DNA of 39,209 nucleotides, from IMG/VR virus record IMGVR_UViG_3300030329_003379, positions 1 to 39,209 of that record; one strand, given 5' to 3'. The DNA is from a virus. Shown piece by piece: positions 1,576 to 38,422 of this stretch; position 1 is the stretch's first letter; every line of letters starts with the position of its first letter. The position numbers and the translations under genes are program-made. The notes beneath the pieces were generated by a model. It saw only the letters and a program-made list of their open reading frames with translations, did not search any database and had not been told where the DNA came from.

Positions 1576-1639
1576 CCTGCGCACCGACATCGGCTCGGTC
1601 TACGGCCTGCCGTCCATCTTCTCTATGCGGAAGTCCTGA
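1475..1639 (+). CDS. Small charged protein just upstream of portal
   Basis: 54 codons from ATG 1475 to TGA 1637-1639; the stop overlaps the portal ATG (TGATG). The sequence begins MGPKEDPEAKKARERERRMA, then has RRAAQQTASDL and ends in VYGLPSIFSMRKS. A short basic helix followed by a tail with YGLPSIF is typical of the small ORF seen before the portal gene in many BPP-1/T7-like phages. It overlaps the 3' part of the preceding gene by 101 nt. Codon third positions are GC-rich in this frame, which supports coding. Function unknown; it may assist portal or terminase assembly. Confidence 0.6.
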   Translation: MGPKEDPEAKKARERERRMARYESRRAAQQTASDLRTDIGSVYGLPSIFSMRKS

Positions 1640-3147
1640 TGAAGCCTTCCGAGGATTTCAGCACGCGCCTAAAGACGGCGCGGCTCTGGCGTGACGCGGC
1701 GAAGCCCTACATCCAGGAGATCTTCCGCTTCTGCGCGCCGGGCCGCTCCAACGACTTCGACCGCAAGCCGGGCGACGACAAGTCGATCAGCGAAGCCGAA
1801 ACCTTCCACTCCCTGCCGGAAGAACTAGCCACCGACCTCGCCGGCGATCTGGTGAACTACTACACCCCGGCCGAGTCCCGCTGGTCCGAATTCTCCGTCA
1901 CCGCGCCGATCCCGGAGGACATGGCGGACGAGGTGAAGGATCTCGTGGAAAACCGCGAGGAGGAGCTGTTCGACCTCATCACCGCGTCGAACTACAACGA
2001 CATCGCCCCGCAATGGGGCTTCGAGGCGGCCACGCACGGCACGCCCGCGGTCTGGGTTCAGCAGGCGCACATCGCCCAGGCGATCTACATGGAGGTCGTC
2101 CCGCCCCACGAACTGCTCATCACCCCCGGCCACATGGGGATCCTCGACCGGTTCCGCGAGCACTACGTCGCCTACACCAGCCTCAAGGCCACGCTGGCGG
2201 GCTGGAACGCCGACCTGTCGCACCCCTCGATCGCGACGAAACTCACCAAGCCCGGACTGAACGCCAAACTGTGCTGGGGCTTCTGGGTCGATTGGGAAGA
2301 CCCGGGCCGCCCGCTGTGGAAGATGGAAGTCACCGTCGACGACAAGCAGGTCGTCAAGCCGGTGGTCATCGGCGATCTTGCCGGCGCCTGCCCGCTCCTG
2401 ATCGGCCGCTTCAACCCGCAGCCCATGCGCCCGTGGGGCCGCGGGGCCGGGTGGAAGGCCCTGCCCGACATGCGCACACTGGACAAGGTGGACGAGGTGG
2501 TCATCACCAACCTCGACGACGCGCTCCAGAACACCCTCATCTACCCGGATGACGGCTTCATCGACATGTCCGAGGGGATCATCGCCGGGACCGCCTACCC
2601 CGCGCACCGGGGGTTCACCCGCGACCAGATCTACGAATTCCCCAAGGGCGGCGAGCTCGATTACGGGTTCTATTCGGAGGAGCGGTTCGAGGCCCGCCTG
2701 CGCACCGCCTTCTACCAGGACGGGCCGCGGCAGAGCGGCGACACGCCCCCGACCGCAACGCAGTGGGTGGACGAGCGCCGCCGCATCCAGCAGCGCCTCG
2801 GCAAGCCGTCCGCGCCGCTGTGGACCGAGATGCTGGCGCCGCTGATCCAGCGCGTCGAATACCTCGGTGTCCGGTCGGGGCGGCTGGAGCAGGCCATCAC
2901 GCTCAACGGCAACCAGCTCACCCTCCTGCCAATCTCGCCGCAGCAGAAGGCCCACAACCAGGATCAGGTGCTTGTCGCCCGGTCGAACCTCGACCTCGCA
3001 GTGGCGACCTTCGCCGAGAACACCGGCAACATCGTCGACGGCGTGGGCACGTTCCAGAACATCGTCCGGGCGTCGGGCGACAAGCTCACCGTCATCCGAC
3101 CCCAGGAGATCGTTCCCGATGAAACCACTCCCCCTTCGGGTGGCTAA
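1639..3147 (+). CDS. Portal (head-to-tail connector) protein
   Basis: 502 residues, within the usual 500-560 range for podovirus connectors. The family shows in the N-terminal helix set (RLKTARLWRDAAKPYIQEIF), the segment EELATDLAGDLVNYYTPAESRW, the central GDLAGACPLLIGRFNPQPM, RGAGWKALPDMRTLDKVDE, and the C-terminal stem-like region TATQWVDERRRIQQRL followed by LAPLIQRVEYLG. Twelve copies form the DNA channel at one capsid vertex, binding terminase during packaging and the tail adaptor afterwards. It is coupled to the previous gene by a TGATG overlap and is followed by a Bbp19-like gene that starts 29 nt before its stop. Confidence 0.9.
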   Translation: MKPSEDFSTRLKTARLWRDAAKPYIQEIFRFCAPGRSNDFDRKPGDDKSISEAETFHSLPEELATDLAGDLVNYYTPAESRWSEFSVTAPIPEDMADEVKDLVENREEELFDLITASNYNDIAPQWGFEAATHGTPAVWVQQAHIAQAIYMEVVPPHELLITPGHMGILDRFREHYVAYTSLKATLAGWNADLSHPSIATKLTKPGLNAKLCWGFWVDWEDPGRPLWKMEVTVDDKQVVKPVVIGDLAGACPLLIGRFNPQPMRPWGRGAGWKALPDMRTLDKVDEVVITNLDDALQNTLIYPDDGFIDMSEGIIAGTAYPAHRGFTRDQIYEFPKGGELDYGFYSEERFEARLRTAFYQDGPRQSGDTPPTATQWVDERRRIQQRLGKPSAPLWTEMLAPLIQRVEYLGVRSGRLEQAITLNGNQLTLLPISPQQKAHNQDQVLVARSNLDLAVATFAENTGNIVDGVGTFQNIVRASGDKLTVIRPQEIVPDETTPPSGG

Positions 3148-3514
3148 GCCCGGCCCGCTGATCGAATACCTCGAGAATCTGCGCGAGCAGGCGCGGCGCG
3201 CGAAGGAAGCCAGGAAGGACGGCGCGGCGGCCGAACTGTTCGATGCGGCGGCCCGAACGGAGGCCGCGGTGCGCCGGGTCTTCGCGAGCGAGGATGGCCA
3301 GATAGTCATGGAACTCCTCGAAAAATCAACGACTTGGGCCATCCTCGATCCGCTTGACGATGTTCGTGCATTGGGCGCGCGCAACGCTCAGAGATTTATT
3401 GCTCTCGATCTCAGGAGGATTGCGAGCGATGAACGTAGCGAACTGGAAAAGCAGATTTCTGTGGGCGCCCGAGGACGAGACGGGCGGCGGAACCGGGACG
3501 ACGACCGGGGCTGA
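3119..3514 (+). CDS. Bbp19-like small head protein
   Basis: 131 codons from ATG 3119, with CAGGAGA 12-18 nt upstream inside the portal gene. Residues 58-110 (FASEDGQIVMELLEKSTTW, then VRALGARNAQRFIALDLRRI) follow the Bbp19-family pattern of one short domain with a DG motif and a terminal basic helix. In BPP-1-like phages this gene sits between portal and scaffold. The last 28 residues overlap the scaffold gene by 86 nt and are an Arg/Asp/Gly-rich tail of poor codon quality. The exact role in the head is unknown. Confidence 0.5.
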   Translation: MKPLPLRVAKPGPLIEYLENLREQARRAKEARKDGAAAELFDAAARTEAAVRRVFASEDGQIVMELLEKSTTWAILDPLDDVRALGARNAQRFIALDLRRIASDERSELEKQISVGARGRDGRRNRDDDRG

Positions 3515-4211
3515 CACCGTAGCCGCGGGCGGCGAGGATACCGTCTCGCCCGGTGCCGACACGGTTGCGGGCGGCGGTGACGACACCGTAGCCGGACCGG
3601 ATTTCTCCTTCATCGGCGAGGACTTCCACAAGGACGGCCAGCCCGACTTCACCGCGTTCGGCACCCACTACCAGGATCTGCTCGCCGAGAAGGCGCAGCG
3701 CGACGAAGTGCTCGCGAAGGTGCCGGAGAACGGCGAATACGACTTCGCGATCCCGGACGATTTTGACCTCGGCGTTGAACTACCCGAAGGCGTCCGACCC
3801 GAGATTTCCACCGACGACGAGACCTTCAAGCCGCTGTTCGGCGAACTCGGCGCGTGGATGAAAGAGAACAACCTGCCCTCCGAAGCCGGGCAGCAGGTCA
3901 TGGGGATGCTGGCGAAATACGAGGCCGCCCGGATGGGCAAGAACTTCGCCGCCGCGAACGAGCAATACGAAAAGCTCGGCCCCAACGACGCCACGCGCGA
4001 TGCCCGTATCGGCAAGGTGGAACGCGCGCTGGAAACCGCTCTCCCGAAGGAACTGGTGGACGGGCTCAAGCCCGCTATCCGGTCCTACGCGGGCATCCGG
4101 GCTCTCGAGGCGCTGATCGGGCGCGGCGGGATCTCGACCTCCACCACCACCCCGAAGCCCCGTTCGGTCCAGGAGGACATGGACGCCTACTACAACAACC
4201 CCGCGCAGTAA
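3429..4211 (+). CDS. Capsid assembly scaffolding protein
   Basis: 260 codons from ATG 3429 (AGGAGG at 3412-3417). It is acidic, with a Gly/Thr/Asp-rich segment in the first 60 residues containing five DTV repeats (GADTVAAGGEDTVSPGADTV), then ENGEYDFAIPDDFDLGVELP, which is typical of scaffolds of this phage group. A helical C-terminal part (LPSEAGQQVMGMLAKYEAA, ALETALPKELVDGLKPAI) leads to a basic/Ser-Thr-rich tail. It lies directly before the coat gene. It should guide procapsid assembly and leave before DNA entry. Longer N-terminal starts exist, but the ATG with a ribosome site fits the family. Confidence 0.8.
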   Translation: MNVANWKSRFLWAPEDETGGGTGTTTGADTVAAGGEDTVSPGADTVAGGGDDTVAGPDFSFIGEDFHKDGQPDFTAFGTHYQDLLAEKAQRDEVLAKVPENGEYDFAIPDDFDLGVELPEGVRPEISTDDETFKPLFGELGAWMKENNLPSEAGQQVMGMLAKYEAARMGKNFAAANEQYEKLGPNDATRDARIGKVERALETALPKELVDGLKPAIRSYAGIRALEALIGRGGISTSTTTPKPRSVQEDMDAYYNNPAQ

Positions 4212-6186: not shown

Positions 6187-6216
6187 AAGGGGCCCCTCCC
6201 TCGGGGGCCCCTTTCT
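6187..6216 (+). terminator. Intrinsic terminator closing the head gene unit
   Basis: A perfect 10-bp inverted repeat, AAGGGGCCCC (6187-6196) and GGGGCCCCTT (6204-6213), with a 7-nt loop, is followed by TTTCTC. It lies 30 nt after the stop of the coiled-coil gene and directly before a promoter-like element. It is the clearest terminator in the window. Confidence 0.85.
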
Positions 6217-6220
6217 CGTT

Positions 6221-6261
6221 GGTGCATATGAGAACGCCGGGCCGCCGCTCATCTTCGCGGC
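6221..6261 (+). promoter_or_regulatory. Late promoter-like element, copy A
   Basis: GGTGCATATGAG at 6221-6232 and CATCTTCGCGG at 6250-6260 recur, with almost the same spacing, in two other intergenic gaps (16683-16724 and 21246-21287). If CATCTT is the -10 box, transcription would begin at the A of ATG 6262 and the mRNA would be leaderless. The element follows a terminator, which fits the start of a new unit. The sigma factor or activator is unknown; the -35 region is not the usual TTGACA. Confidence 0.55.
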
Positions 6262-6855
6262 ATGGCTACCGAATTTTCCAGACTTGGGATCATGAACGCC
6301 GCCCTGCTCGCGCAAGGGTATCAGGAGGTCGCGTCCGAGAACGACGGGACCGAGGAATTCCTTGCCCTGTCGCGCAACTGGTCCGGCATCGTCGAATCCG
6401 AACTGGAGGAGGGCCGCTACAACTTCACGAAGCAGGAGGAGGTGCTGTCCACCCGGATCGACGGTAAATTCGGGTTCGACGACGGCTACCTTCTACCCTC
6501 GGAAACCCTTCACGTGCGCCACCTCTGGGTGCTGGATGCCACGGGCGAGCGGTGCGCGGTGCCGTGGGTGCAGGATGACCGCTACGTCTACGTGGACAGC
6601 GAGGACGGCTGCACGGTGGAGACGGTCATCGTGAAGACGACCAACCTCTGGAGCGCGAACTTCTGCACCGGGGTCCAGCGCAAGCTCGAAGCGATCCTCC
6701 TGCGCCTCGGTGGTGAACCGTCCGCCGCGCAGAGCATGGAACAGCAGGCGGAGGTCTATTTCCAGCGCGCCCGCACGAACTCGTCGAAATCGCGCAGCGC
6801 GGCGCCGGTGGTGAAGTCGAGCCGCATCGCGCGCGCGAGGTTCGGGCGTGGCTAG
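6262..6855 (+). CDS. Tail adaptor / head completion protein (tubular protein A-like)
   Basis: 197 residues. The opening FSRLGIMNAALLAQGYQEVA, then NWSGIVESELEEGRYNFTKQ and EAILLRLGGEPSAAQSMEQQ, match podovirus adaptors that bind the portal ring and carry the nozzle. No Shine-Dalgarno sequence precedes ATG 6262; the family's usual N-terminus still favours this start. A Ser/Arg-rich tail (TNSSKSRSAAPVVKSSRIAR) ends the protein. It overlaps the nozzle gene by 8 nt. Confidence 0.8.
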   Translation: MATEFSRLGIMNAALLAQGYQEVASENDGTEEFLALSRNWSGIVESELEEGRYNFTKQEEVLSTRIDGKFGFDDGYLLPSETLHVRHLWVLDATGERCAVPWVQDDRYVYVDSEDGCTVETVIVKTTNLWSANFCTGVQRKLEAILLRLGGEPSAAQSMEQQAEVYFQRARTNSSKSRSAAPVVKSSRIARARFGRG

Positions 6856-14239: not shown

Positions 14240-16683
14240 CCTTCGCCGACTGCATGGGCCGGGCCGCCGGTGAGCACCCGGAGCACAAGGGCCGGGCAAA
14301 AGACTGGACCGACGAGTGGAAGACCATGGCCGATGCCTACGAGCGGCAGGGCTGGTCTCGTCATCAGGCGGAACAGATGGCGGCCGACGACGTGAAGGCC
14401 CGCCTCCGGAAGAAGACGCAGCGCAGCCGGCACACGATCATGGCTCAACTCGCCGTGGAGCGCCGCAACGCCCTCATGGCGAACCGGTCGCAGAAGCCGG
14501 AGGAATTGCCGCTTCGGATCCTCGAGGCATCCACCGCCTCCTCGAACCAGATGGATACGGTGGTCGGGACGATGAACGCGCTCCGCAACCAGTTCGACGG
14601 CATGATGTCCACGCTCCTGCGTCAACACGGTCGCGACCTTCTCGGGCGGGTGCGGAACAAGGCGAAGCTGAAAGACATCATCCGCGAGGCGCATGGGGAG
14701 GCCACCGGAAACCCGGAAGCCGCGGCCATGGCGAGGGCCTGGACCGACGCGAAGGAGCGCGCCCGGCAACTGTTCAACGCAGCCGGTGGCGACATCGGGC
14801 TACTCGACGACCACGGCGTGCCGCACCGCCACGACCGGGTGCGGATCATGCAGGCCGGATTCGACGAGTGGTTCGACGAGGTGGCGCCACGGCTGGATTG
14901 GACGAAGATCGAGAACTTCTGGACGAAGAAACCGTTTTCGTCTGACGGCATGCCGCCGCCGCTGGAGGTGCAGCGCGGGTTCCTGAAAGAGATCTTCGAC
15001 AACATCGAGACGGACGGCTGGGTGAAGAGCGATGTCACGTGGGGGATGCAGAACGGAGCCGCCTTGCACAACCGGTATTCGGAGGCACGCACCCTGCACT
15101 TCCGCTCGGCCGACGACTGGATGGCCTACAACGACCGGTTCGGCAGCGCGGACCCCTACTCCGCGATGATCGGGCACATGCACAGGATGGCGCGGGACAT
15201 CGCCATGATGCGCGTTCTGGGGCCGTCGCACAGTGCCGGGCTCGACAACATCGTCAACCACGCGATGAAGAAGGTTGCCGGGAACAAGGCGCTGGAGGAC
15301 AAGCTGGCCGCCAACGCGAACACCGCGCGCGCGATGCTGGCCCACATTTCCGGCGCCGCGAACACGCCTCACAACGAGCTCTGGGCGCGGTTCTTCGGCG
15401 GCACCCGTCAAATCCTCTCCGCCGCGCACCTCGGGTCCGCGATGCTGGTCTCGGGGTCGGACAGCGTGGCGATGACGCTGGCGGCGAAATCGGTCGGGAT
15501 GAACCCGGCGAACGTGGTCTCCCGGCACGTGTCCCTCATGGCCTCCAGCGTGAACCGCGAGGAAGCCGCGCGCATGGGGTTCGTGGCCGACACACTGGCC
15601 GACGCCGGTAACACGCTGCTGCGCTATCTCGGGGAGGCGCCAGTGGCAGATTGGGCGGAGCGAATGTCATCGTTCGTCATGCGCGCGCAGGGCCTGTCGT
15701 TCTGGACCGACATGGCGCGGGTCGCCTTCAACATGGAAACCGCGGGCATGTTCGCCGGGGCCAAGCGTCTTGATGACCTGGAGCCGCGGTTCGCCGCCCG
15801 GCTGCGGCAGCGCGGGATCACCGACGACGACTGGAGGCTGTTCGCCCGGGAGGATCTGCACTTCCGCACGAGGGACGGCATCCGCTTCGCCTCACCGAAG
15901 CACTGGCGCGAGGCGGCCCTGTCCGCCGGTATCGAGCCAGAGCGCGTGGAGCGGATCGTGCTGACGATCGACGGTCTGGTGCAGGAGATGACGGAGATCG
16001 CGGTGCCGTCGAACTCCTTCGAGATGCGGGCGCGGTTCATGGGCCAGAGCCAGCCCGGCTCCCTTCCGGGCGAACTGGCCCGCTCGCTGGTGGCCTACAA
16101 GAGCTACGCCATGACCTTCACGATCAACCAGTATCGGCAGACCATGGCGATTCCGACCGGGATGGGTAGGGCGCAGTATGTCGCCGCCGGCATGGCCGGG
16201 TTCACCGTCATGGGCGCCCTCGGCGTGCAGTTGAAGGAGATGGCGAAGGGGAACGAGCCCCGGCCGATGGACGACGCCTCGTTCTGGACCGCGGCGGCGC
16301 TGCAGGGCGGCGGTCTCGGCATCATCGGGGATCTGACCTCTGCCTCCAGCACGCGGCTGGGCGGCGGCCTGATGGGCTACTTCGCGGGACCGGTCATCGG
16401 CCTCGGCAACGACATCGGCGCGCTGACCTTCGGCAATATGGCGGCGGCGATCCGCGGCGACGAAGCGCACCTCGGCCGCGACCTGACATCATTCGCGAAG
16501 CGATACACCCCCGGCACGACGTTCTGGCCGACCCGCGCGGCCATGGACCGGCTGATCTGGGACCAGATGCAGATCCTCCTCGACCCGGAGGCCGATACCG
16601 CCATGCGGCGCGAGGTGAGGCGCCAACAGCGCGAGTATGGCAACGGCCAGTGGTGGCCTTCGGGTGAGATGACGCCCGGCTAG
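14236..16683 (+). CDS. Largest internal virion protein (DNA ejection channel candidate)
   Basis: 815 residues. It opens with MTFADCMGRAAGEHPEHKGR and DAYERQGWSRHQAEQMAADD, then long helices. The C-terminal third has two hydrophobic Gly-rich stretches (YVAAGMAGFTVMGALGVQLK and RLGGGLMGYFAGPVIGLGND) separated by an aromatic region, which could cross a membrane. It ends QQREYGNGQWWPSGEMTPG. The size, order and C-terminal hydrophobicity match the last core protein before the tailspike in BPP-1-like phages, comparable in role to T7 gp16. No transglycosylase motif is seen here, unlike T7 gp16. Confidence 0.65.
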   Translation: MTFADCMGRAAGEHPEHKGRAKDWTDEWKTMADAYERQGWSRHQAEQMAADDVKARLRKKTQRSRHTIMAQLAVERRNALMANRSQKPEELPLRILEASTASSNQMDTVVGTMNALRNQFDGMMSTLLRQHGRDLLGRVRNKAKLKDIIREAHGEATGNPEAAAMARAWTDAKERARQLFNAAGGDIGLLDDHGVPHRHDRVRIMQAGFDEWFDEVAPRLDWTKIENFWTKKPFSSDGMPPPLEVQRGFLKEIFDNIETDGWVKSDVTWGMQNGAALHNRYSEARTLHFRSADDWMAYNDRFGSADPYSAMIGHMHRMARDIAMMRVLGPSHSAGLDNIVNHAMKKVAGNKALEDKLAANANTARAMLAHISGAANTPHNELWARFFGGTRQILSAAHLGSAMLVSGSDSVAMTLAAKSVGMNPANVVSRHVSLMASSVNREEAARMGFVADTLADAGNTLLRYLGEAPVADWAERMSSFVMRAQGLSFWTDMARVAFNMETAGMFAGAKRLDDLEPRFAARLRQRGITDDDWRLFAREDLHFRTRDGIRFASPKHWREAALSAGIEPERVERIVLTIDGLVQEMTEIAVPSNSFEMRARFMGQSQPGSLPGELARSLVAYKSYAMTFTINQYRQTMAIPTGMGRAQYVAAGMAGFTVMGALGVQLKEMAKGNEPRPMDDASFWTAAALQGGGLGIIGDLTSASSTRLGGGLMGYFAGPVIGLGNDIGALTFGNMAAAIRGDEAHLGRDLTSFAKRYTPGTTFWPTRAAMDRLIWDQMQILLDPEADTAMRREVRRQQREYGNGQWWPSGEMTPG

Positions 16684-16724
16684 GTGCATTCTGGGAAGAC
16701 GGAAGCGCCGCGCACATTCGCGGC
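16683..16724 (+). promoter_or_regulatory. Late promoter-like element, copy B
   Basis: GGTGCAT begins on the last base of the preceding stop codon (16683-16689). CACATTCGCGG at 16713-16723 stands where copy A has CATCTTCGCGG. The last 8 bases before the start codon plus the first 10 coding bases (TTCGCGGCATGGCTACCG) are identical to copy A. The gap here is only 41 nt, so it holds little besides this element. The -35 side is less like copies A and C after GGTGCAT. Confidence 0.5.
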
Positions 16725-19700
16725 ATGGCTACCGTATCTTCCGCCCCCCGCGTCAACGAGATCACTCTTGCGAGTGACAGCGCCGGCCCGTTCGAGGTCG
16801 GCTTTCGGCTGTTCGAGGCGGACGCCCTCGAGATCTACGTCAACGAGGTGCGGCAGACCACCGGCTACACGATCACCGCCAGCTTCTCGGACGGCTACGA
16901 CGACGACGCCACGCTGAGCTTTACGACCGCGCTGTCCAGCGGCGACGTCATCCTGATCCTCGGCAACATGGCACCGGCCCGGGGCGAGGATTACCTGCCC
17001 GGCGACGGCCTCCTCTCGAACAAGCTGAACATCGAACTGGCCCGGATGTGGGCCGCGCTGTCGGAGACGCGCTCGCTGGCGATGCGCTCGGCCCGGATCC
17101 TGTCCAGCGAGGACTTCGGCTACCTGCCCGCCACGCCGAACAACCTGATCGGCATCGGCGAGGACGGCGCACCGGCGCTCTATCCCGCCGTGACCGAGGT
17201 GCTGGAAGAAGCGATCTTCCTGTCCTTCTCGACGCGCGCGGCGGCCGAGTCCGTTGATGCCAACACCGCGACCCGGAAATACATCCTGGTCGAAGGCCTG
17301 ATCTACGCCTACGAGGAAGGCGCGACCGACCTTGTGACCGGCGACGGGCGCACGTGGAAACTGGCGGATCGCCTGTTCTTCGCCACCTACGACGACCTGC
17401 TGGCCGACACCCGGAGCTGGTTCTGGGAAGGCTTGCCGCTCTACATCGGGACGCATGGCGTGGCCGTGGTTGCCGCGGATGACGCGACCGATCACGTCGG
17501 GACGACGGCGGGCGGCGTGAAGGTCTACACGATCGGGATCTCCGACACGGAATCGTCCGGGTTCTACCGCGGCGCCGGGTCGAAGGTGAACTTCCTCCGG
17601 TGGCGCGGCCGGGTCTTCGGGGCCGACAGCTACAGCTTCGCCGGGTATGCCTCCACGTCGGTCGACGCCCTGGGGGTGACGCGGAACTACCGCACGGGCT
17701 CCTTCCTGAACGCCTCGTCCGAGAACGCGCCGGCCGGGTATCCGACCGAGACGACCTCGGGCGCGACGACGCACCTCGACGAAGGGACGAACCTGTTCGC
17801 GGTGAACGGCGACGTGGTGGTCCTGGCCTCGAGCATCGACGCGACCACGGCCACGACGACGCTCCCCATCGTGGATGCGAGCGCTCTGCCGAACAGCGGC
17901 GTGATCCGCTGCGGGTCCGAGCTGATCTATTACACCGGCAAGAGCGGGAACACGCTGACCGGCGTGGTGCGCGGCTTCAACCCGGTCAACCAGACGCAGG
18001 GCACGGCGGTCGGGATCTACACGACGCTGGCGAGCGGCATCACCTCCGTCGCCACGACGATCCCGCTGGCCGACGCTTCGGTCTATCCGACCTCCGGCAC
18101 GATCACGATCGGGTCGGAGACGATCACCTACACCGGCAAGAGCGGGAACGATCTCACCGGCGCCACGCGCGGCGCGGGCGGCACGACGGCGGCCGCCCAT
18201 TCCTCCGGCGCTGAGGTCCGGGCGGACCCGGTTGCCGATGCGAACCTCGTGACGGCGCACGCGGGCGGGACGGCCTACACCACCGGCTCGCTCGCCAGCG
18301 CGATCGACAACAGCGTGACCACGATCCCGCTGGTGAACGCGAGCAGCTTCGCCTTCTCGGGCACCGTGCGGATCGGCTCCGAGCTGATCTCGTATACGGG
18401 GAAATCCGGCAACAACCTGACCGGTGCCACCCGAGGCGGCAGCGCGGTCAGCCACGGGGCGGGCGCGTCGGTCGTGCAGGGCGACCGGGCCTACCTCGTC
18501 TTTATCGGCACACGCCTCCGCGGCTACGAAGCGAACGCGCAGATGGTGTGGTCGACCGACCGCGGCGGGTTCGCGATCGTCGGCGCCGCGCAGACCACGA
18601 GCTCGCAGCCGGGCATCGGCGTCTCCGGCATCGTGCGGCTGGCGTTCTCCGGATCCACGAACGGCTGGGGCGGCTACTTCGAGGCGGTGCGCGGCGACAA
18701 GGTGGCGGGCGGCGGCCTGTGGGCGATCGAGGCGTCCGCGGTCAACTACCGGATCTCCCCGACGACGCAGAAGGTGAACCCCTACTCGGACGGGTATGCC
18801 GGGCACAACAAGGTGTTCATGGCGAACGCCGGGGCCGACGAGACCAACGTCTTCGACATCGACGTGTTCTACCACGCCCGCGGCCATTACTACCTTGACG
18901 AGAGCGATCCGGCCTACGACGGGAAGCCCAAGGGCGCCCGGGCTATGGCGCTGCTGGTCTCCCCGGACAAGGGCCTGCGGGAAACCTCCTCGGACGGCGG
19001 CACGTCGGCGGCCACGAAAAAGTCGTTCATGCTCGGGTCGATGCACGCGATCACGGGTTCGGATCCCACGGCGGACAGCAACAACCCCCGGATCGGTCAG
19101 GAGCTGTTCTACAACCACCTCACCGGCGCGTGGACCTCGAACCGGACGAACCCTCCCGGATCCACGCCGATGCTCTGGGATTACCGCGTCTCCGGCACGT
19201 CCCAGCTTGCCCTTGCAGCCCGCTCCGGCGGCGGCGTGTCGTGGAACACCGCAGGGGTCACGCTGTCTCTCGGGTCGCGGGCGGCGCTGGTCACCTACTG
19301 GGCCAGCCATAGCGGTAAGCACGCTGCAGGTGATCGCCTGAGCGATGGCGAACTCGGCTATTTCGTGATGCCAGCGGGTCATGTCGCGTATGGCTCCGAT
19401 CCCATCTCGGCGCTACCGGGATTGGCCCCGGTTCCAGAATGGATCGACGCCCGGCACTTCGGTGACATCGGAAATGGGGTGATGGCGGATGACACTGCCG
19501 CGATCCAGGCAGCAATCGACTATGTGAACCTGACCAGCGGCGGAGTGGTCAACATCCCCTCTGGCACGTTCATCATCGACGGGGCCAAGGGTGATGCAGA
19601 GACTTACAATGCCAACCTCGGCGGCGGTCTGCGCCTTCTTTCCGGAGTTACCCTACGCGGGCGCGGGCCGTCTCTGACGTCCCTCCAGAACGGCGCTGAT

Positions 19701-21173
19701 GAGTGGCGCTCGGTCATTGGTATCCGGGATCCGCGTGACTTCGGTATCGAAGATATGACCATTGACGGGCAGTGGCCGACCTACGATCCGCACCCGACCG
19801 ACCCCAAGCGGGGCGAGTGCATCATCACATGGAACGACGCTGATCCGCTGGTGAACGGCAGCCTCAAGAGGCTGGTGCTGAAAAACTCGGCGCACTACCT
19901 GCTCGGCCTGCAGAACGTCAGCCAAGAAGGTCTGCAGGTCGAAAGCATCGTTGGGGAGAACGCGGGCGGCGACGGAATCGACATCAAGTCCTTCACCCAG
20001 ATCCTGAGCACTGCCGTGACCGAGGATCGCATGACCTCGATCAAGCATATCTGGATCAAGTCGTTCATGCAGAACCCGGATCACGACGATCAGGCGGGCG
20101 TGGATATTCGCGGGACCGTCCACGCGGATCACATCTTCGTGGAACAGACGTGGGATCTGAAAACCGGCCAGACAGCGAAGACAGGTATCCGCATGAACGC
20201 GCCGGTGACCGCGAGTAGCCGCCTCGGTGCGGCGCGGTCGAAGCTGGGCTATCACGTGGTCACCTCCACCAAGCCCGCAGGGAACGGCAACACGACGGAC
20301 GAGTTCATCACGGGCGTCGAGGTCAACGACAGCTACGTGAATCTCTCGCCCGGCGTGGTTGAGGATCAGTTCTACGGTTACCGATTTACTGCCAACCAAG
20401 ACGGCGTTCCCGTTGGGGTGCAAGGCACAGGCCTCACTGCAATCCGCTGCAAAGGCACGTCGGGAGATGGTCGGGCCTTCGATTTCGGAGCAGATGCGGA
20501 CCACTGCAATATTCAAGGTTTCGCGGATGACTGCGACTATGGCTGGGATAGCGGCGGCACCTATAACCACCTGTCCGGGTCGGCGCGCAACTGCCTTGTC
20601 GGCTTGAGTTACGATAGTGACACCGCGTTCCCGCACAGCCTCGTGTTCGAGGGCTGCACGACCGATGTTCAAGACAGGTCAGGCGGCTATGCCGAGACGG
20701 GAAACATCGTGCCCCGGATACAGGCCATCATCGGCCCTCGGCAGGTTTATCAGGACATCGTTTCCACGGCGGACGATAGCGGCTGGACGGGCGATGACGC
20801 CATCCTGGGCGGGGTTCGGTTCTATAAATACGACCAGACTGGCGGCAACATGGGTCTCTTTGGCGAGATGACCATGCGGGCGACCGGCTCCACGGGCGGA
20901 AACTTCGCCATGTGGTTCGCGGTGCAGGACGCCGCCGGAACTATGGTCGATGTGCTGGAGCTGCAGTACGGCAGAATCCGTGCCAAGGTTCCGGTGGAAA
21001 GCCCCGTCTACACAGTAGCAACCCTGCCGTCTGGCGTCTCTGCCGGTGCTACGGCATATGCCTCCAACGGTCGAAAGTCGGGCGAGGGTGCAGGCGCGGG
21101 GACGGGGGTTCCTGTCTACTGGGGTGGCGCGGCGTGGCTCACGTATTACGACAACACGACGGTCCAAGCATAA
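16725..21173 (+). CDS. Tailspike with N-terminal tail adapter and pectate-lyase-like beta-helix
   Basis: 1482 residues. Residues 1-150 are the virion-binding domain of the T7 fibre type (FEVGFRLFEADALEIYVNEV, GEDYLPGDGLLSNKLNIELA). Three related repeats near residues 367-416, 435-482 and 523-570 share IGSELI-YTGKSGN-LTG. From residue 913 a pectate-lyase-3-like start (FGDIGNGVMADDTAAIQAAI, then GGVVNIPSGTFIIDG) begins a beta-helix typical of polysaccharide-cleaving spikes. The C-terminus YWGGAAWLTYYDNTTVQA is a common fibre tip. Bases 20341-20400 are 53% G+C against 70% for 18001-18060, so the distal receptor part looks swapped in. No Shine-Dalgarno is seen before ATG 16725. Confidence 0.85.
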   Translation: MATVSSAPRVNEITLASDSAGPFEVGFRLFEADALEIYVNEVRQTTGYTITASFSDGYDDDATLSFTTALSSGDVILILGNMAPARGEDYLPGDGLLSNKLNIELARMWAALSETRSLAMRSARILSSEDFGYLPATPNNLIGIGEDGAPALYPAVTEVLEEAIFLSFSTRAAAESVDANTATRKYILVEGLIYAYEEGATDLVTGDGRTWKLADRLFFATYDDLLADTRSWFWEGLPLYIGTHGVAVVAADDATDHVGTTAGGVKVYTIGISDTESSGFYRGAGSKVNFLRWRGRVFGADSYSFAGYASTSVDALGVTRNYRTGSFLNASSENAPAGYPTETTSGATTHLDEGTNLFAVNGDVVVLASSIDATTATTTLPIVDASALPNSGVIRCGSELIYYTGKSGNTLTGVVRGFNPVNQTQGTAVGIYTTLASGITSVATTIPLADASVYPTSGTITIGSETITYTGKSGNDLTGATRGAGGTTAAAHSSGAEVRADPVADANLVTAHAGGTAYTTGSLASAIDNSVTTIPLVNASSFAFSGTVRIGSELISYTGKSGNNLTGATRGGSAVSHGAGASVVQGDRAYLVFIGTRLRGYEANAQMVWSTDRGGFAIVGAAQTTSSQPGIGVSGIVRLAFSGSTNGWGGYFEAVRGDKVAGGGLWAIEASAVNYRISPTTQKVNPYSDGYAGHNKVFMANAGADETNVFDIDVFYHARGHYYLDESDPAYDGKPKGARAMALLVSPDKGLRETSSDGGTSAATKKSFMLGSMHAITGSDPTADSNNPRIGQELFYNHLTGAWTSNRTNPPGSTPMLWDYRVSGTSQLALAARSGGGVSWNTAGVTLSLGSRAALVTYWASHSGKHAAGDRLSDGELGYFVMPAGHVAYGSDPISALPGLAPVPEWIDARHFGDIGNGVMADDTAAIQAAIDYVNLTSGGVVNIPSGTFIIDGAKGDAETYNANLGGGLRLLSGVTLRGRGPSLTSLQNGADEWRSVIGIRDPRDFGIEDMTIDGQWPTYDPHPTDPKRGECIITWNDADPLVNGSLKRLVLKNSAHYLLGLQNVSQEGLQVESIVGENAGGDGIDIKSFTQILSTAVTEDRMTSIKHIWIKSFMQNPDHDDQAGVDIRGTVHADHIFVEQTWDLKTGQTAKTGIRMNAPVTASSRLGAARSKLGYHVVTSTKPAGNGNTTDEFITGVEVNDSYVNLSPGVVEDQFYGYRFTANQDGVPVGVQGTGLTAIRCKGTSGDGRAFDFGADADHCNIQGFADDCDYGWDSGGTYNHLSGSARNCLVGLSYDSDTAFPHSLVFEGCTTDVQDRSGGYAETGNIVPRIQAIIGPRQVYQDIVSTADDSGWTGDDAILGGVRFYKYDQTGGNMGLFGEMTMRATGSTGGNFAMWFAVQDAAGTMVDVLELQYGRIRAKVPVESPVYTVATLPSGVSAGATAYASNGRKSGEGAGAGTGVPVYWGGAAWLTYYDNTTVQA
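17823..18440 (+). repeat. Three diverged repeats within the tailspike gene
   Basis: Units at about 17823-17973, 18027-18173 and 18291-18436 each encode about 50 residues with the pattern TTIPLxxAS...SGxxxIGSExIxYTGKSGNxLTGxxRG. They are separated by spacers of variable length. DNA identity is highest over the part encoding YTGKSGN. Such units probably form stacked beta-modules between the tail adapter and the receptor-binding helix. They could recombine to change shaft length. Confidence 0.8.
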
Positions 21174-21191
21174 GAGTTGGGCGCGACCGTA

Positions 21192-21218
21192 GCGGCGTAA
21201 CCAGCGCCGCCGCCCTTT
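21192..21218 (+). terminator. Candidate terminator after the tailspike gene
   Basis: GCGGCG (21192-21197) pairs with CGCCGC (21205-21210) around a 7-nt loop, followed by CGCCCTTTC. The stem is only 6 bp and the T run is short, but it lies 18 nt after the tailspike stop and just before promoter-like copy C. Confidence 0.4.
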
Positions 21219-21245: not shown

Positions 21246-21287
21246 GGTGCATACGAGCACCCCCCTCCCCCACCTATCTTGCGGACC
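21246..21287 (+). promoter_or_regulatory. Late promoter-like element, copy C (lysis unit)
   Basis: GGTGCATACGAGCACCCC at 21246-21263 matches copy A in 15 of 18 positions, and TATCTTGCGG at 21275-21284 stands at the same distance as CATCTTCGCGG in copy A. TATCTT is a fair -10 box; TACGAG lies 17 bp upstream in the -35 position. Unlike copies A and B, about 25 nt of leader and an AGGGA ribosome site separate it from the first gene (ATG 21312). Confidence 0.55.
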
Positions 21288-21311: not shown

Positions 21312-21527
21312 ATGGGAGTGGACTGGTCAGAACTCCTCGGAGCCTTCGGGGGCGGTCCATCGGCGGCCATGATCGTCGTCCTCCTCGGCGCGGTGGTCGC
21401 CCTGTGGCGCCGGAACACCCAGCAGAGCGATGCCCGTCTGGCTGACCAGAAGGAGCACACTGCGCAGATCATCGAGACAACCCGACTGATCGACACCGCC
21501 GTCCGCGTGATGGAGGCCCGCAAATGA
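21312..21527 (+). CDS. Small single-span membrane protein, lysis region
   Basis: 71 residues. One hydrophobic span at about residues 17-33 (PSAAMIVVLLGAVVALWRR) is followed by a charged helix to the end. AGGGA sits 8-9 nt before the ATG. It is the first gene of the lysis unit. A role as holin, antiholin or accessory is possible from position; there is no family match I can name. Confidence 0.6.
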   Translation: MGVDWSELLGAFGGGPSAAMIVVLLGAVVALWRRNTQQSDARLADQKEHTAQIIETTRLIDTAVRVMEARK

Positions 21528-22658: not shown

Positions 22659-22922
22659 ATGATCGCCTACCTCCTCGCCGGGGCCGGTGGGCTCGCGATC
22701 ATCGCCGGTGGCTGGGCCTATGTCGAGCGGCAGCAGAACGAGGTGCTGCGCCACGAGATCGCGGCCGTCGAACTTCAACTCGGCGCGTGCGAGGCGCGGG
22801 CCGACAACATGACAGAGGACAAGAGGTCTGACGATGAAGTGGATCGCATCCCTGACGACGGCCTGCGCGATGCTCCTGACCGCTGGATGCGCCAAGCCCC
22901 CGGAGCCGGTGGCGTCTACTGA
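22659..22922 (+). CDS. Inner-membrane spanin (Rz-like)
   Basis: 87 residues. An N-terminal signal anchor (MIAYLLAGAGGLAIIAGGWA) is followed by a short periplasmic helix (ERQQNEVLRHEIAAVELQLG). A lipoprotein gene begins inside it in the +1 frame, as in Rz/Rz1 pairs. It is shorter than lambda Rz (153), which fits the minimal spanins of small podoviruses. The C-terminal part after residue 58 overlaps the lipoprotein gene and is probably constrained by it. It should pair with the lipoprotein to fuse inner and outer membranes. Confidence 0.65.
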   Translation: MIAYLLAGAGGLAIIAGGWAYVERQQNEVLRHEIAAVELQLGACEARADNMTEDKRSDDEVDRIPDDGLRDAPDRWMRQAPGAGGVY

Positions 22923-23064
22923 GGCGCTGTTCTGCGACGTGGAGGAGCCGCGGCGATTCTCTCAAGAGGAGCTGGACTGGCGGGCCGCCAACGCGCCGTG
23001 GAACCTGCGGCGGGACTACAAGACGAACCTGACATGGGAGCGTGAGTGCGATGCCGGAGATTGA
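22834..23064 (+). CDS. Outer-membrane spanin lipoprotein (Rz1-like)
   Basis: 76 residues. Signal peptide MKWIASLTTACAMLLTAGC has a clear lipobox (LTAGC, Cys19), then Pro-rich KPPEPV. It starts within the Rz-like gene in another frame and ends 142 nt past it. AAGAGG precedes the ATG. The mature part, with several Trp and acidic residues (FSQEELDWRAANAPWNL), is somewhat longer than lambda Rz1. Confidence 0.75.
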   Translation: MKWIASLTTACAMLLTAGCAKPPEPVASTEALFCDVEEPRRFSQEELDWRAANAPWNLRRDYKTNLTWERECDAGD

Positions 23065-23587
23065 CGAAAGCGCCCGCACGTTTGTCGCGGGCCAGATGGG
23101 CTCGAACGACTGGCTCGTGATCTTCGCGATCTCGGAAGATGCCGGCGGCAAGGCCCGGGTGTCGGAGTTTCTGGCCGCGCACAGCATCGTCGTCGAGGAG
23201 AGCAGCCCGACCTTCAACGATGTGACCGCGGACAACGTGGCGGCCACCACAGGCACGGTCGGGGATCTGGAGGTCTCCACGTCCATCAAGGTCAGCGAGG
23301 ACGGCTCCCTGATCGAGAGCGTCCTTCTGCGGGAGGTCTCCGTCGCTCCATCCGACATCACCGCCGGATCCAGCGAGACGGTCAATGTCACGGTCACCGG
23401 GGCCGCAACGACGATGTATCTGAGCGGGGCGGCGCTGACCGGCGCGCTTCCTGACGGCCTCACCATGCAGGCGTGGATCTCCGCGGCCGATCAGGTGAGC
23501 TTCAAGTTCCACAACAACTCCAGCGGAACGATCACCGGGGCGATCTACACCGCCCGCCTGACGCTCATGTCCGCCGGCACGCCGTAA
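23051..23587 (+). CDS. Fibre-like structural protein
   Basis: 178 residues from ATG 23051; GTG 23042 is an alternative start but its ribosome site would be too close. Residues 1-50 are a small helical head (DWLVIFAISEDAGGKARVSE). The rest is beta-rich, with TADNVAATTGTVGDLEVSTS resembling a fibre shaft and an end domain (SAADQVSFKFHNNSSGTITG) of the form found at the tips of phage fibre and coat-associated proteins. It overlaps the Rz1-like stop by 14 nt. It may be a short side fibre; no function is proved. Confidence 0.55.
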   Translation: MPEIDESARTFVAGQMGSNDWLVIFAISEDAGGKARVSEFLAAHSIVVEESSPTFNDVTADNVAATTGTVGDLEVSTSIKVSEDGSLIESVLLREVSVAPSDITAGSSETVNVTVTGAATTMYLSGAALTGALPDGLTMQAWISAADQVSFKFHNNSSGTITGAIYTARLTLMSAGTP

Positions 23588-23597
23588 GGAGGCATCC

Positions 23598-23846
23598 ATG
23601 GACAAATTCACCACCACCACGACATTTCCGAATGGCGGTCCATTTCCGGCCACCGCGCACGACCGGACGGTCATCGTCGACGCCAACGGCGGCTCCATGG
23701 CGATCGAGGCCAACATGGGAGACGGCACGTGGATCGCCCTGCCGGATAGCCCCTACTCCGCCGACACCGTGTTCCGGCTCGAGGTGTCGGGCACACAGTT
23801 CCGGTTCACGCCTTCCGGCGGGGCAACGGTCGCGGTCAGCAACTGA
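23598..23846 (+). CDS. Small beta-rich virion-associated protein (unknown)
   Basis: 82 residues behind AAGGAGG. The sequence (NGGPFPATAHDRTVIVDANG, WIALPDSPYSADTVFRLEVS, TQFRFTPSGGATVAV) looks like one beta-sandwich of the decoration or fibre-tip type. The TGA overlaps the next ATG. It lies between two probable fibre proteins. No family is recognised. Confidence 0.55.
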   Translation: MDKFTTTTTFPNGGPFPATAHDRTVIVDANGGSMAIEANMGDGTWIALPDSPYSADTVFRLEVSGTQFRFTPSGGATVAVSN

Positions 23847-25069
23847 TGGTGACGCGCTCGATCGCCCGGCCGATCTACAGAGCCCTAGGCTCGCTGCCGG
23901 ATGCGCTCTCCGCTGAGTTGGTGTCCCGAGCCGAAGCGATTATCGCGGCGGCTGATGCCTACTCCTACCCCGGCGATCTGGCATCCGCGCCCACGGTCAG
24001 TGTCGGCACCACCGGGGCAAACAGCACGTTGAACAGCGCCAGCGTGAACAGCCCGACCTACAGCATCGACAACGCCGCGCATGTCTGGCGCATGGGGCCG
24101 CTCGCGGCATACTCGGGCAACGAAGCGTTCGGCTGGACCGGCGCGTGGGTCACCAAGAGCGGCACCCGGTCGCCCGGTGGTGCAGGCATCGCCTACAGCT
24201 TTCAGGCCACGAACCTCACCGCTTTCGACATCATGATGACCGGCAATGCCGCCCGGGTCTTCCGCGTCCGGGTGAACGGCTCCTGGGCGCACGCTGACCA
24301 GACGGTGAACTTCTCGGGCCGGGCCTATGTGAAGGTGACCTTCGCCTCGCCCGTCTCCGGGACAATCGACATCTGCCTTGATGCCCTGACCCCGATCAAG
24401 GGCGTCAACATCGACGGCGGTGCGACGTGGGGCGGCCCAGCCAACCCGGTCTTGATGGCCTCGATCTTCGGGGACAGCTACACGCAGGGGAACAGCGGAT
24501 GGACGATCCGGGGCACACCTGCGCAGCGGTTCGGGGAGAAGATGGGGATCCAGAACATCGTCCCGCACGGAGCCTCCGGGCAGGGCTATGCCACGCTGGT
24601 TGACGGCGAATACATCCACACGCGGATCGCGAAGGACGCTGGCTATATTCAGGATCAGCTCGGGCGAGACGATCCGCATTTCGTCGTGGCCTATGGCTCG
24701 GTGAACGACCGGGGCGGCGACACGGCTACAATCGCGGCCAACATCGCAACGGGCATCCAGTCGCTCCAATCTGCCTATCCCGACTCGTGGGTCATCTTCT
24801 TCGCCAGCTTCAACACGACGGCGGGAACGCCGTTCTCCTCGGCCGACATTGCCGCGTTCAAGGCGGAGGCGGACGGGGTGGCGGACGCCCGAACGCTGGT
24901 GATCGACACAACCGATTGGGAGGAGGTGTCGCAGACCGGGACGCTTCCGGGCGGCTACGGGAGTCACGACAGCCCTGATGGGGTCCACCCCGGCCCGAAC
25001 GAAACTGAATATCTTACGGACCTGATGGTTAGCTCTGCGGTCGCGGCGCTGGAGGCTGCAATCGGCTGA
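23846..25069 (+). CDS. SGNH/GDSL-type esterase, tail-associated
   Basis: 407 residues. The SGNH hydrolase blocks are present in order: GDSYTQG (Ser211), the Gly in HGASGQGY, AYGSVND (Asn287) and SPDGVHPG (Asp378, His381). A beta-rich N-terminal part (residues 1-195; VKVTFASPVSGTIDICLDAL) precedes the catalytic domain and may bind carbohydrate or attach to the virion. Related phage enzymes remove acetyl groups from capsule or O-antigen sugars. No signal peptide is seen, and the gene follows fibre genes, so a receptor-modifying tail protein is likely. It is the last gene of the late strand. Confidence 0.75.
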   Translation: MVTRSIARPIYRALGSLPDALSAELVSRAEAIIAAADAYSYPGDLASAPTVSVGTTGANSTLNSASVNSPTYSIDNAAHVWRMGPLAAYSGNEAFGWTGAWVTKSGTRSPGGAGIAYSFQATNLTAFDIMMTGNAARVFRVRVNGSWAHADQTVNFSGRAYVKVTFASPVSGTIDICLDALTPIKGVNIDGGATWGGPANPVLMASIFGDSYTQGNSGWTIRGTPAQRFGEKMGIQNIVPHGASGQGYATLVDGEYIHTRIAKDAGYIQDQLGRDDPHFVVAYGSVNDRGGDTATIAANIATGIQSLQSAYPDSWVIFFASFNTTAGTPFSSADIAAFKAEADGVADARTLVIDTTDWEEVSQTGTLPGGYGSHDSPDGVHPGPNETEYLTDLMVSSAVAALEAAIG

Positions 25070-30642: not shown

Positions 30643-30986
30643 GCTCGACCCCCGCCTTCCATCTCGGCCGTCTGGCGCTCGTAGGCGGAGACGAGGCGAC
30701 CGAGGATTTCATAGCGCTCCTCGGCCACTGCGCTGACCTCCGACTCGTTCGTCATGTCGCGGTCTTTGAGGCCGTGGATGTGCTGCGCCAGATCAAAGGC
30801 AGCTTCGTTGTCAGCGCACTCGAGTGTCGAGAACAGGTCGATCAGAAGCGCACACGCTGCGCTCATCGGGTGCTGGCCGCTCAGCGTGATGTATGTGCTG
30901 ATCGCAGCCGTCGTGATCTGGTTCAGTTGGTCATATCGGGGGTCGCCCGGACCGAACGTGCCCCGCCGAAGTTCTCCGGTCTTCAT
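30639..30986 (-). CDS. Unknown helical protein next to RecT
   Basis: 115 residues from the ATG complementary to 30984-30986. Helical (DQLNQITTAAISTYITLSG, MSAACALLIDLFSTLEC, AVAEERYEILGRLVSAYERQ). It overlaps recT by 4 nt. No family is recognised; conserved position in a recombination operon hints at an accessory role. Confidence 0.5.
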   Translation of the reverse strand: MKTGELRRGTFGPGDPRYDQLNQITTAAISTYITLSGQHPMSAACALLIDLFSTLECADNEAAFDLAQHIHGLKDRDMTNESEVSAVAEERYEILGRLVSAYERQTAEMEGGGRA

Positions 30987-32008
30987 TCCACTTCCTCCTC
31001 GCTCATTTCGGCGTCGGCCTTGTTCCATCCGGCCCGCCAGTTCAGTTCGTTCTCGCTGCCCGCGTCATACGGACAGTCGGAAAACTCGGTCCCGTCCCGG
31101 CGCGCGGTCTCGCCCTCGGCGTATTCCATCGCGTTCGGGTCCGGCTCGGGGTGGCTGTCGATCGTCTCGGCGTCCTCGATGTCGCCGGCATCATCTTCCG
31201 GCTGAACGTCCTGCGGATCTTCACCCCGGCGCGCGGCAGCGGCCCGGGCGGCGAAGCCCATGCTCTCCGGCTCCTTCGGGGTGACATCGCGGATCGGCGC
31301 CGTGTCCTCGTCGGTCATCACCCGGCGGACGTCTTCGGAGCTCATGTCGAGGCGCTTGCAGAGACGGCGGATGACCGTCTTCTTCCACATCTCCTCGAGC
31401 CATTCGAGCCAGATTCCGAGCGGGGTATCCGAGGCGCGTGGCCGCTGCCCTCGCTCGTAGATCTTCTGGGAAGCGCCGGCGCGGCGCACCTTGTCGATGT
31501 CAGCCGCCGACATGAACTCGCGGACCTTCGACCCATCGGTGAGGGTTGCGATTGCGTAGGCGCCCACAGGCTCGCCACGCTCGCCGAACAAGATCGGGTT
31601 GTGCTCCAGCCGCTCGTCGTCGCCCACCACGTAGGTGAAGCGGCCCTCGTCGACCTCGCGCTGGTAGACGATGTGGGCACGGATGTCCTTCACCGTGCCG
31701 GAGCGGCGGACCATCTTGATGAGGCCGAAGACCATGGGCATCGCCTGGCACTTCTCGCCGTCCTTCGTGCGGAAGGGGACCAGCGCCGCCTCGCGCCCGT
31801 CAGGAACGAGGCCAGCGGCGGCCAGCGTGCGGATGCTCTTGAACACCGACTCCCGGTCGCAGTTGAGGATCTTCGGGTTGTCCTGCACCGCGACCACGGC
31901 GGCGTTGCGGAACGCCTCGGGCTTCACGTTGCTGGGCAGCGCCAGCTCCTTGCGTTCGATCAGGGTGCCGATGTCGCGCTTGAACGCGACGAGGGGGTTG
32001 TCGGTCAC
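30983..32008 (-). CDS. recT: RecT-family annealing recombinase with C-terminal RMF/CrpP-like domain
   Basis: 341 residues. The RecT core is plain: PEAFRNAAVVAVQDNPKILN, SVFKSIRTLAAAGLVPDGRE, AMPMVFGLIKMVRRSG and EEMWKKTVIRRLCKRL. It anneals single strands made by the neighbouring exonuclease. After an acidic linker, residues 295-336 (GETARRDGTEFSDCPY, then NWRAGWNKAD) match the ribosome modulation factor/CrpP pattern: small residue, G, then CPY (312-314), Trp324, and GW (327-328). Such a tail is unusual for RecT. The core call is secure; the tail call rests on motif spacing. Confidence 0.88.
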   Translation of the reverse strand: MTDNPLVAFKRDIGTLIERKELALPSNVKPEAFRNAAVVAVQDNPKILNCDRESVFKSIRTLAAAGLVPDGREAALVPFRTKDGEKCQAMPMVFGLIKMVRRSGTVKDIRAHIVYQREVDEGRFTYVVGDDERLEHNPILFGERGEPVGAYAIATLTDGSKVREFMSAADIDKVRRAGASQKIYERGQRPRASDTPLGIWLEWLEEMWKKTVIRRLCKRLDMSSEDVRRVMTDEDTAPIRDVTPKEPESMGFAARAAAARRGEDPQDVQPEDDAGDIEDAETIDSHPEPDPNAMEYAEGETARRDGTEFSDCPYDAGSENELNWRAGWNKADAEMSEEEVE

Positions 32009-37065: not shown

Positions 37066-37590
37066 ATGGCGAAAGACGAAGGAACCGGCGAGCTTACCGT
37101 CTCGCACGACGAGCTGATCGACCAGATCCACGCTCGCTCGAAGGAGGAATACGCCCGGCAGAGCGATGCCGGCGAGAGTGGCGCCAAGGTCAACGAATTC
37201 CTCGAGAAGACCGGCATGAACGGGCAGGCCTTCGGCTGGCTCAAGTCGATCATGAAGAAGCTGCCGAAGAAGGACGGCTCGGTGAAGGCGCTGGACATCA
37301 TCCGGTCGCTCGAGATCGGCCTGCCGATGGTGAAGAACCACATTCAGGGCCAGCAGCCCGACCTCGGCTTGGGCGATCCGGCGGATTACGAGGATCCGGA
37401 TCAGGAGCCCGATGATGGTGACGATGATGACGAGGGCATCGGCGCCGAGTTCCCGGACGGCGAGGAGATGGAGCCCGCCGACGAGGACAGCATCGACGAG
37501 GACGCGGAGGATTTCGAGGCCGCGCTGGCCGACCTCGAAGACGAGGACGACGAGTCGAACGTCACGCCGTTGAAGAAGGCCGGCAAGTGA
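37066..37590 (+). CDS. Unknown protein with very acidic C-terminal half
   Basis: 174 residues, GAAGGAG upstream. The N-terminal half (VSHDELIDQIHARSKEEYAR, VNEFLEKTGMNGQAFGWLKS, LDIIRSLEIGLPMVKNHIQ) is a helical domain found in some alphaproteobacterial phages. Residues 95-165 are dominated by Asp and Glu (DDGDDDDEGIG) and could mimic DNA or bind basic partners. The next gene product is strongly basic, so an acid-base pair is possible. Confidence 0.55.
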   Translation: MAKDEGTGELTVSHDELIDQIHARSKEEYARQSDAGESGAKVNEFLEKTGMNGQAFGWLKSIMKKLPKKDGSVKALDIIRSLEIGLPMVKNHIQGQQPDLGLGDPADYEDPDQEPDDGDDDDEGIGAEFPDGEEMEPADEDSIDEDAEDFEAALADLEDEDDESNVTPLKKAGK

Positions 37591-37904: not shown

Positions 37905-38422
37905 CCCGGGTTATGGCTTTCGATGTGGCGACCCAGACCGGTGTCGCTTTCGGTGTCGCGGGGAAGGTTCCCCGCGCCACCACGTATGTCTTCGGCAAGT
38001 CGATGGGGGATCACCCCGTTCGGTTTGCCAAAGCCATGCGCGCCGTCTCGACGCTGATGGAGCGGTATGAGCCGGACCACGTGTTCTTCGAGGCCCCTAT
38101 CGGCGGCGAGAAAGCTAACGCCTTCCTGATCGGGCTGACGGCCTGCATCACCGGCACGGTGGCGTCATACGGCGTCCCCGTGGAGCGTGCGCCGGTCCAG
38201 TCGGTCAGGAAGCACTTCCTCGGCAAGCACCTCGTCAAGAAGGACTTCCCGGGCATGTCCGAGGCGCAGGCCCGCGGCGCGATCAAGCAGCGCGTCGTGG
38301 GGCGCTGCACGGCGCTCGGGTGGACGCCGAAGAACGATGACGAATCGGACGCCATGGCGATCTGGGACTACGGGTGCGGCCGCCTGCGGGTGGCGAACGC
38401 GATGCCGGAGGGCCTGTTCTGA
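37901..38422 (+). CDS. RuvC-like Holliday junction resolvase
   Basis: 173 residues starting at GTG 37901 (GTGA overlap with the previous stop); ATG 37913 is an alternative start that keeps the active site. The RNase H-fold acidic residues are in place: Asp8 (MAFDVATQTGVAFG), Glu64 (VFFEAP), and Asp147/Asp150 (NDDESDAMAIWDY). Phage members resolve branched DNA before packaging. The place close to the terminase supports this. Confidence 0.85.
   Translation: MTRVMAFDVATQTGVAFGVAGKVPRATTYVFGKSMGDHPVRFAKAMRAVSTLMERYEPDHVFFEAPIGGEKANAFLIGLTACITGTVASYGVPVERAPVQSVRKHFLGKHLVKKDFPGMSEAQARGAIKQRVVGRCTALGWTPKNDDESDAMAIWDYGCGRLRVANAMPEGLF

Follow-up and report, generated by a model that had tools for sequence, protein, structure and literature searches.

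The DNA upstream of the tail tubular A-like (TTA) gene of an uncultivated virus carries a short element that recurs before further late genes, and it raises the question of whether this element is a promoter and what reads it. The window—the whole stretch of DNA analysed here—is IMG/VR virus record IMGVR_UViG_3300030329_003379 and spans 39,209 nt at 65% G+C. The + strand features a T7-like virion module consisting of head–tail adaptor/portal, major head protein, two tail tubular proteins, internal virion proteins, and fibre; the − strand encodes an integrase, a RecT-like annealing protein, and an exonuclease. The window virus is a temperate podophage. Comparison with the relative G004 reveals that approximately 8 kb of relatives are absent between the window end and the window start, a region that in relatives harbours the replication initiator, a DnaB-like helicase, the helix-turn-helix (HTH) protein P4, TerS, and most of TerL. 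The window record is, hence, cut from a longer genome. The phage collection contains no nucleotide-level relatives of the window, and no known RNA families or tRNAs were found in it. An Rz-like spanin match at 22659–22922 falls into the putative lysis cassette. In addition, the RecT-like protein (30983–32008, −) resembles in a C-terminal stretch the ribosome modulation factor (PF04957, E 0.0012, below the cut-off); a GDSL lipase/acylhydrolase domain protein (23846–25069, +), which possibly modifies a host surface polysaccharide, closes the late region; and the early operon encodes a phosphoadenosine phosphosulfate reductase domain protein (38374–39207, +).

Copies of the element in the window

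The element features GTGCAT, a spacer of 22–23 nt, and nAnnnT, and lies before the tail gene (6221), the fibre gene (16683), and the lysis genes (21246). GGTGCAT begins at each of these three positions as described in a sequence-only reading of the same DNA, and copies A and C indeed agree in 15 of their first 18 bases. The second box YATCTT, described there as shared by all three copies, holds for A and C; copy B carries CACATT instead, with a spacer longer by one base. Two further copies, D and E, are absent from that reading. The features are as follows.

1414–1448, +: copy D, CGTGCATTCACG ... CACATT, inside the 3′ end of gene 1078–1575
3365–3398, +: copy E, CGTGCATTGGGC ..., in coding sequence just ahead of a scaffold-type gene (3354–4211)
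6187–6213, +: terminator hairpin just upstream of copy A (−22.8 kcal/mol, z −3.0)
6221–6261, +: copy A, putative promoter of the TTA operon; box GTGCATATGAG at 6222–6232, −10 CATCTT at 6250–6255
6262–6855, +: TTA gene (PHROG 394), without Shine–Dalgarno sequence, predicted leaderless
16683–16724, +: copy B, putative promoter of the tail fibre gene; box GTGCATTCTGG at 16684–16694, −10 CACATT at 16713–16718
16725–21173, +: tail fibre/spike gene, without Shine–Dalgarno sequence, predicted leaderless
21189–21213, +: candidate terminator hairpin upstream of copy C
21246–21287, +: copy C, putative promoter of the lysis genes; box GTGCATACGAG at 21247–21257, −10 TATCTT at 21275–21280
21312–21527, +: first gene of the putative lysis cassette, 3′ of copy C

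Transcription is predicted to start at the A of ATG 6262 for copy A, at ATG 16725 for copy B, and at about 21287 for copy C, the latter leaving a leader of approximately 25 nt with a purine-rich stretch before ATG 21312. Copy B overlaps the stop codon of the upstream gene (TAG 16681–16683) by a single base. The claim that two copies follow terminators stands for the strong hairpin before copy A and is weaker for copy C, where the whole stretch folds no better than shuffles (z −0.9). Copies D and E both begin with CGTGCAT and lie in gene ends, before the portal and the scaffold gene, respectively. Copy D is located upstream of a small gene (1475–1639) and the portal gene (1639–3147), at a position conserved in nearly all relatives; copy E has a poor −10. 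The TTA and fibre genes have in common a 15-mer, GCGGCATGGCTACCG, that spans the start codon (6257–6271 and 16720–16734).

Exact GGTGCAT occurs on the + strand only four times in 39.2 kb, and the fourth copy (21586) is intragenic and lacks the second box. The strict pattern GGTGCAT-N20-28-YATCTT is matched twice in the window—by A and C only—against 0.01 matches expected from shuffles. The loose pattern GTGCAT-N20-22-nAnnnT is matched three times against 0.6 expected, a mild excess given a maximum of three in 200 shuffles. A standard sigma-70 scan of the window yields no excess over shuffles and recovers no copy of the element; the −35 slots of the window copies read TATGAG, TTCTGG, and TACGAG. 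With the window alone giving only a mild excess of copies over chance, the case is decided by conservation among relatives.

Conservation and layout of the probable late promoters in related phages

Computation shows that the element is conserved, keeps its spacing, strand, and position relative to genes, is almost absent from host chromosomes, changes in concert, occurs together with P4, and, at TTA and fibre, mostly stands before genes without a Shine–Dalgarno sequence. Relatives were collected in a first round by a capsid protein search, yielding 24 contigs, three of which are syntenic through the tail genes, and further via tail-protein alignments, yielding IMG/VR contigs and prophages in Rhodobacteraceae genomes. 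The prophages reside in Oceanicola, Pseudooceanicola, Primorskyibacter, Pseudorhodobacter, and MAGs, with Primorskyibacter flagellatus, Oceanicola sp. S124, and Pseudooceanicola endophyticus among the hosts. The element precedes the TTA gene in 30 distinct relatives, 28 of which carry exact TGCAT, one GTGCCT, and one GTGCGT, and TGC(A)T lies 39–40 nt before the ATG. A sigma-70-type −10 box, nAnnnT with A at −11 and T at −7, is in register at 27 of the 30 sites, and the remaining three have one extra spacer base. The distance between box and −10 is nearly fixed, whereas the distance to the ATG slides by one base. The −10 box is separated by 17–18 bp from a poor −35 slot of the form T-(T/A/G)-(T/G)-G, some sites reading TTGGCT or TTGCCC. 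The signature of sigma-54—an invariant GG at −24 and GC at −12—has no counterpart in the 30-site alignment. In addition, a terminator-like hairpin is found just before the TTA site in 28 of 33 relatives. Taken together, the comparative sequence data render a promoter function well supported.

At TTA, TerS, and fibre, the ATG falls approximately 6–7 nt after the −10 and would coincide with the start of transcription if nAnnnT is the sigma-70 −10 box. Shine–Dalgarno sequences are present in only 15% of TTA and 12% of fibre genes; MCP, IVP, p5267, and p1475 all have one. An ATG at the predicted start site together with a Shine–Dalgarno sequence that is mostly missing at TTA and fibre leads to the prediction of leaderless mRNAs, and the TerS, TTA, and fibre messages are all predicted to be of this kind. 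The same fixed distance before the ATG at TTA and fibre and the same missing Shine–Dalgarno would also suit a signal in the 5′ leader, acting in translation or at the RNA level, rather than a promoter. This reading is highly improbable: other sites are located 50–300 nt before genes with a good Shine–Dalgarno or inside upstream genes, the distance from box to −10 is better kept than that to the ATG, and the 41-mers of the sites show no consistent structure (mean z −0.55). As the box also precedes genes with good ribosome binding sites, it is not a translation signal in general.

A motif search in related phages, proposed in the sequence-only reading, finds late-gene sites throughout the family with a strong bias for the late strand. 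A profile built from the TTA sites detects 100 late-strand against five opposite-strand sites at a score of ≥14 and 85 against two at ≥15; these counts include the training sites and some duplicate contigs and are not independent. The sites precede TerS, TerL, the small gene before portal, scaffold, TTA, fibre, and a mobile gene of unknown function. In fibre genes of relatives, the site lies 40–44 nt before the ATG, and a weaker site (TTGCATCGGAC) follows the fibre gene in G021 and L069. The expectation that copies would occur only in intergenic gaps turned out to be wrong: two site classes are situated inside coding 3′ ends of upstream genes and are themselves conserved. Nearly all relatives retain the codons CGT-GCA-TTG at the scaffold site despite a usage of approximately 10%, 14%, and 10%, which points to selection on the DNA. 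The repeats are thus likely to act as on-switches of late genes common to a large family of integrating viruses with marine-type Rhodobacteraceae hosts, as judged from sequence comparison.

The mobile gene encodes a protein of approximately 170 aa and is found at 23042–23587 (+) of the window, at 15437–15960 of L132, and at 42334–42878 of G008; its place differs among relatives. It usually comes with its own late-promoter box, which is lacking in the window. In L132, the gene is now beside TerL and has retained its site.

Candidate readers of the box

Five whole host genomes (approximately 23 Mb) contain nine pattern matches, seven of them inside prophages, and a reversed control pattern yields none. 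Moreover, the box changes in concert. At each of the four homologous sites tested (portal, scaffold, TTA, and fibre), the GTGCCT phage G001 has GTGCCTTGC, and distant phages—TTB at approximately 28–30% identity—feature GTGCGT at the same places, including a record named Microcystis phage Mwe-JY08. Concerted change within a phage points to one trans-acting, sequence-specific reader per phage. A late-promoter family is supported by fixed spacing, strand bias, late-gene placement, phage-only occurrence, and this concerted change. Comparative evidence thereby upholds the initial proposal of a noncanonical promoter read by a host polymerase with either a phage activator or an alternative sigma factor. 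The host could also provide the reader itself, as an alternative sigma factor or a regulator, given that these hosts have many sigma factors and that the −10 is polymerase-like. However, the element has almost no copies outside prophages in the five host genomes, and the box varies in concert within single phages, which makes a host reader very unlikely.

Mwe-JY08 (L124, PP395640.1; GC 66%) has virion genes and a GTGCGT layout as in alphaproteobacterial prophages, and these shared features render its host label doubtful. Its TTB coding region contains an annotated tRNA-Gly.

T7-like tail and capsid genes and promoters repeated before late genes would be reminiscent of a single-subunit phage RNA polymerase. 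Yet no such gene is found in 12 records including near-complete prophages, with a positive T7 control, in line with the initial remark that none is seen, and the two-part layout resembles sigma-70 promoters. Promoters of the T7 kind are, hence, extremely improbable and, as far as relatives of the T7 enzyme can be detected, refuted. The late promoters are probably read by host RNA polymerase helped by a viral DNA-binding protein.

The best candidate for this protein is P4. P4 is an XRE-type HTH protein (HTH_3) of approximately 165 aa encoded downstream of the DnaB-like helicase. All 13 contigs covering the region in a first examination encode it, as do others found later; in the window phage, its gene belongs to the missing region outside the window. 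P4 was picked by conservation, position, and domain from an early region that also holds further genes of unknown function. In the alignment, invariant Cys residues mark the N-terminal part, and the helix DHLAK is conserved. The predicted structure is confident, with a mean pLDDT of 85.5, and its HTH resembles HipB, SinR, and P22 c2. The GTGCGT phages encode related HTH proteins with GHLGK, GYCSK, or GYTGK instead of DHLAK, a difference in the recognition helix that fits P4 as the reader but follows phage phylogeny and is therefore not independent proof. The P4 of the GTGCCT phage was not recovered: the region is not part of its contig, and GTGCAT is the box in related contigs.

A phage factor other than P4 might serve the same promoters, such as another early protein or a sigma-like protein that has diverged. 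Matches to sigma region 4 appear as weak fragments below the cut-off in four contigs, and further early genes are conserved (RuvC-like, 37066–37590). The sigma matches are, however, scattered with none above the cut-off, the family of 37066–37590 is acidic without a DNA-binding match and not found in GTGCGT phages, and P4 is the DNA-binding regulator present throughout. Another phage factor is, thus, unlikely, and we favour a phage activator that acts on sigma-70 over an alternative sigma factor. Two specific candidates were rejected: the protein 37066–37590 as activator, for the properties just given, and a GafA-type activator, as P4 matches HTH_3 (XRE) and yields no DnaA or sigma match.

With P4 as the preferred reader, we infer a mechanism that entails the transcription start, the use of sigma-70, binding of the box by P4, and a contact between P4 and polymerase. 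Early and replication genes would be expressed first; P4 would then switch on several late units at once, namely TerS, TerL, portal, scaffold, tail, fibre, and lysis. The activator box GTGC(A)T(T/A)(T/G)G would occupy about −41 to −32, where it overlaps the −35 element and takes its place, with the sigma-70 −10 box (nAnnnT) 17–18 bp downstream of the −35 slot. The phage protein on the box would recruit host sigma-70 polymerase, and at TerS, TTA, and fibre, the start site would be the first base of the ATG, giving rise to leaderless mRNA. We consider it quite probable that the element is a late promoter of temperate, T7-tailed podophages of Rhodobacteraceae at which a box-bound phage protein, with P4 as best candidate, recruits the host sigma-70 polymerase.

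Comparison with known late-promoter systems

Late regulation is poorly known in temperate podophages with T7-like virions but without an RNA polymerase, and no earlier description of these promoters was found in the open-access literature. On balance, we lean toward an undescribed system of late regulation in a large, diverged group of alphaproteobacterial temperate podophages. It would combine an XRE-type activator carrying an N-terminal Cys motif, dispersed sigma-70 promoters, several leaderless late mRNAs, co-evolution of box and recognition helix into at least three specificities (GTGCAT, GTGCGT, and GTGCCT), and some boxes in coding sequence under codon constraint. The finding offers a testable regulator–box pair and allows late transcription units to be mapped from sequence alone in uncharacterised prophages. 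It also predicts leaderless late mRNAs, and the natural series of altered specificities bears on how activator and box co-evolve.

The layout is that of class II-like activator-dependent promoters: a conserved box beside the −35, a fixed −10 distance, and several late operons. At lambda PRM with CI and at T4 middle promoters with the MotA box, the activator site likewise adjoins or replaces the −35, and the activator contacts sigma region 4; box, spacing, and protein are different here and, as far as tested, not homologous. T4-type late promoters, which consist of a −10 only and depend on the phage sigma gp55, lack the extra upstream box found here. No sigma region 4 is detected above the cut-off in the present phages, but gp55 itself is divergent.

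Alphaproteobacterial sigma-70 promoters also feature a −10 plus a weak −35 at 17–18 bp and are mostly devoid of T at −7 (PMC8407463). In contrast, T at −7 is nearly invariant in the phage sites, and an upstream box is added.

GafA and GafY–GafZ control gene transfer agents in Rhodobacter and Caulobacter (PMC9638019, PMC11150451). GafY brings host RNA polymerase through RpoD to promoters with a degenerate −35; GafA/GafY feature DnaA-like and sigma-like domains, and GafY binds far upstream and needs IHF (PMC9638019, PMC11150451). The likeness lies in prophage-like alphaproteobacterial late clusters, a degenerate −35, and, by prediction, a dedicated activator. Here, in contrast, the box is in direct contact with the −35, and the candidate activator belongs to the XRE type. 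This resemblance is looser than that to GIL01.

In the Bacillus tectivirus GIL01, the single late promoter P3 is activated by gp6, a LexA homologue (PMC6182141). A small phage HTH protein over the −35 region of a late promoter served by host polymerase is common to GIL01 and, by prediction, to the present phages. The latter differ by the XRE-type candidate, many dispersed promoters, and several predicted leaderless mRNAs. The element is set apart from both GIL01 P3/gp6 and the Gaf systems since the protein families differ.
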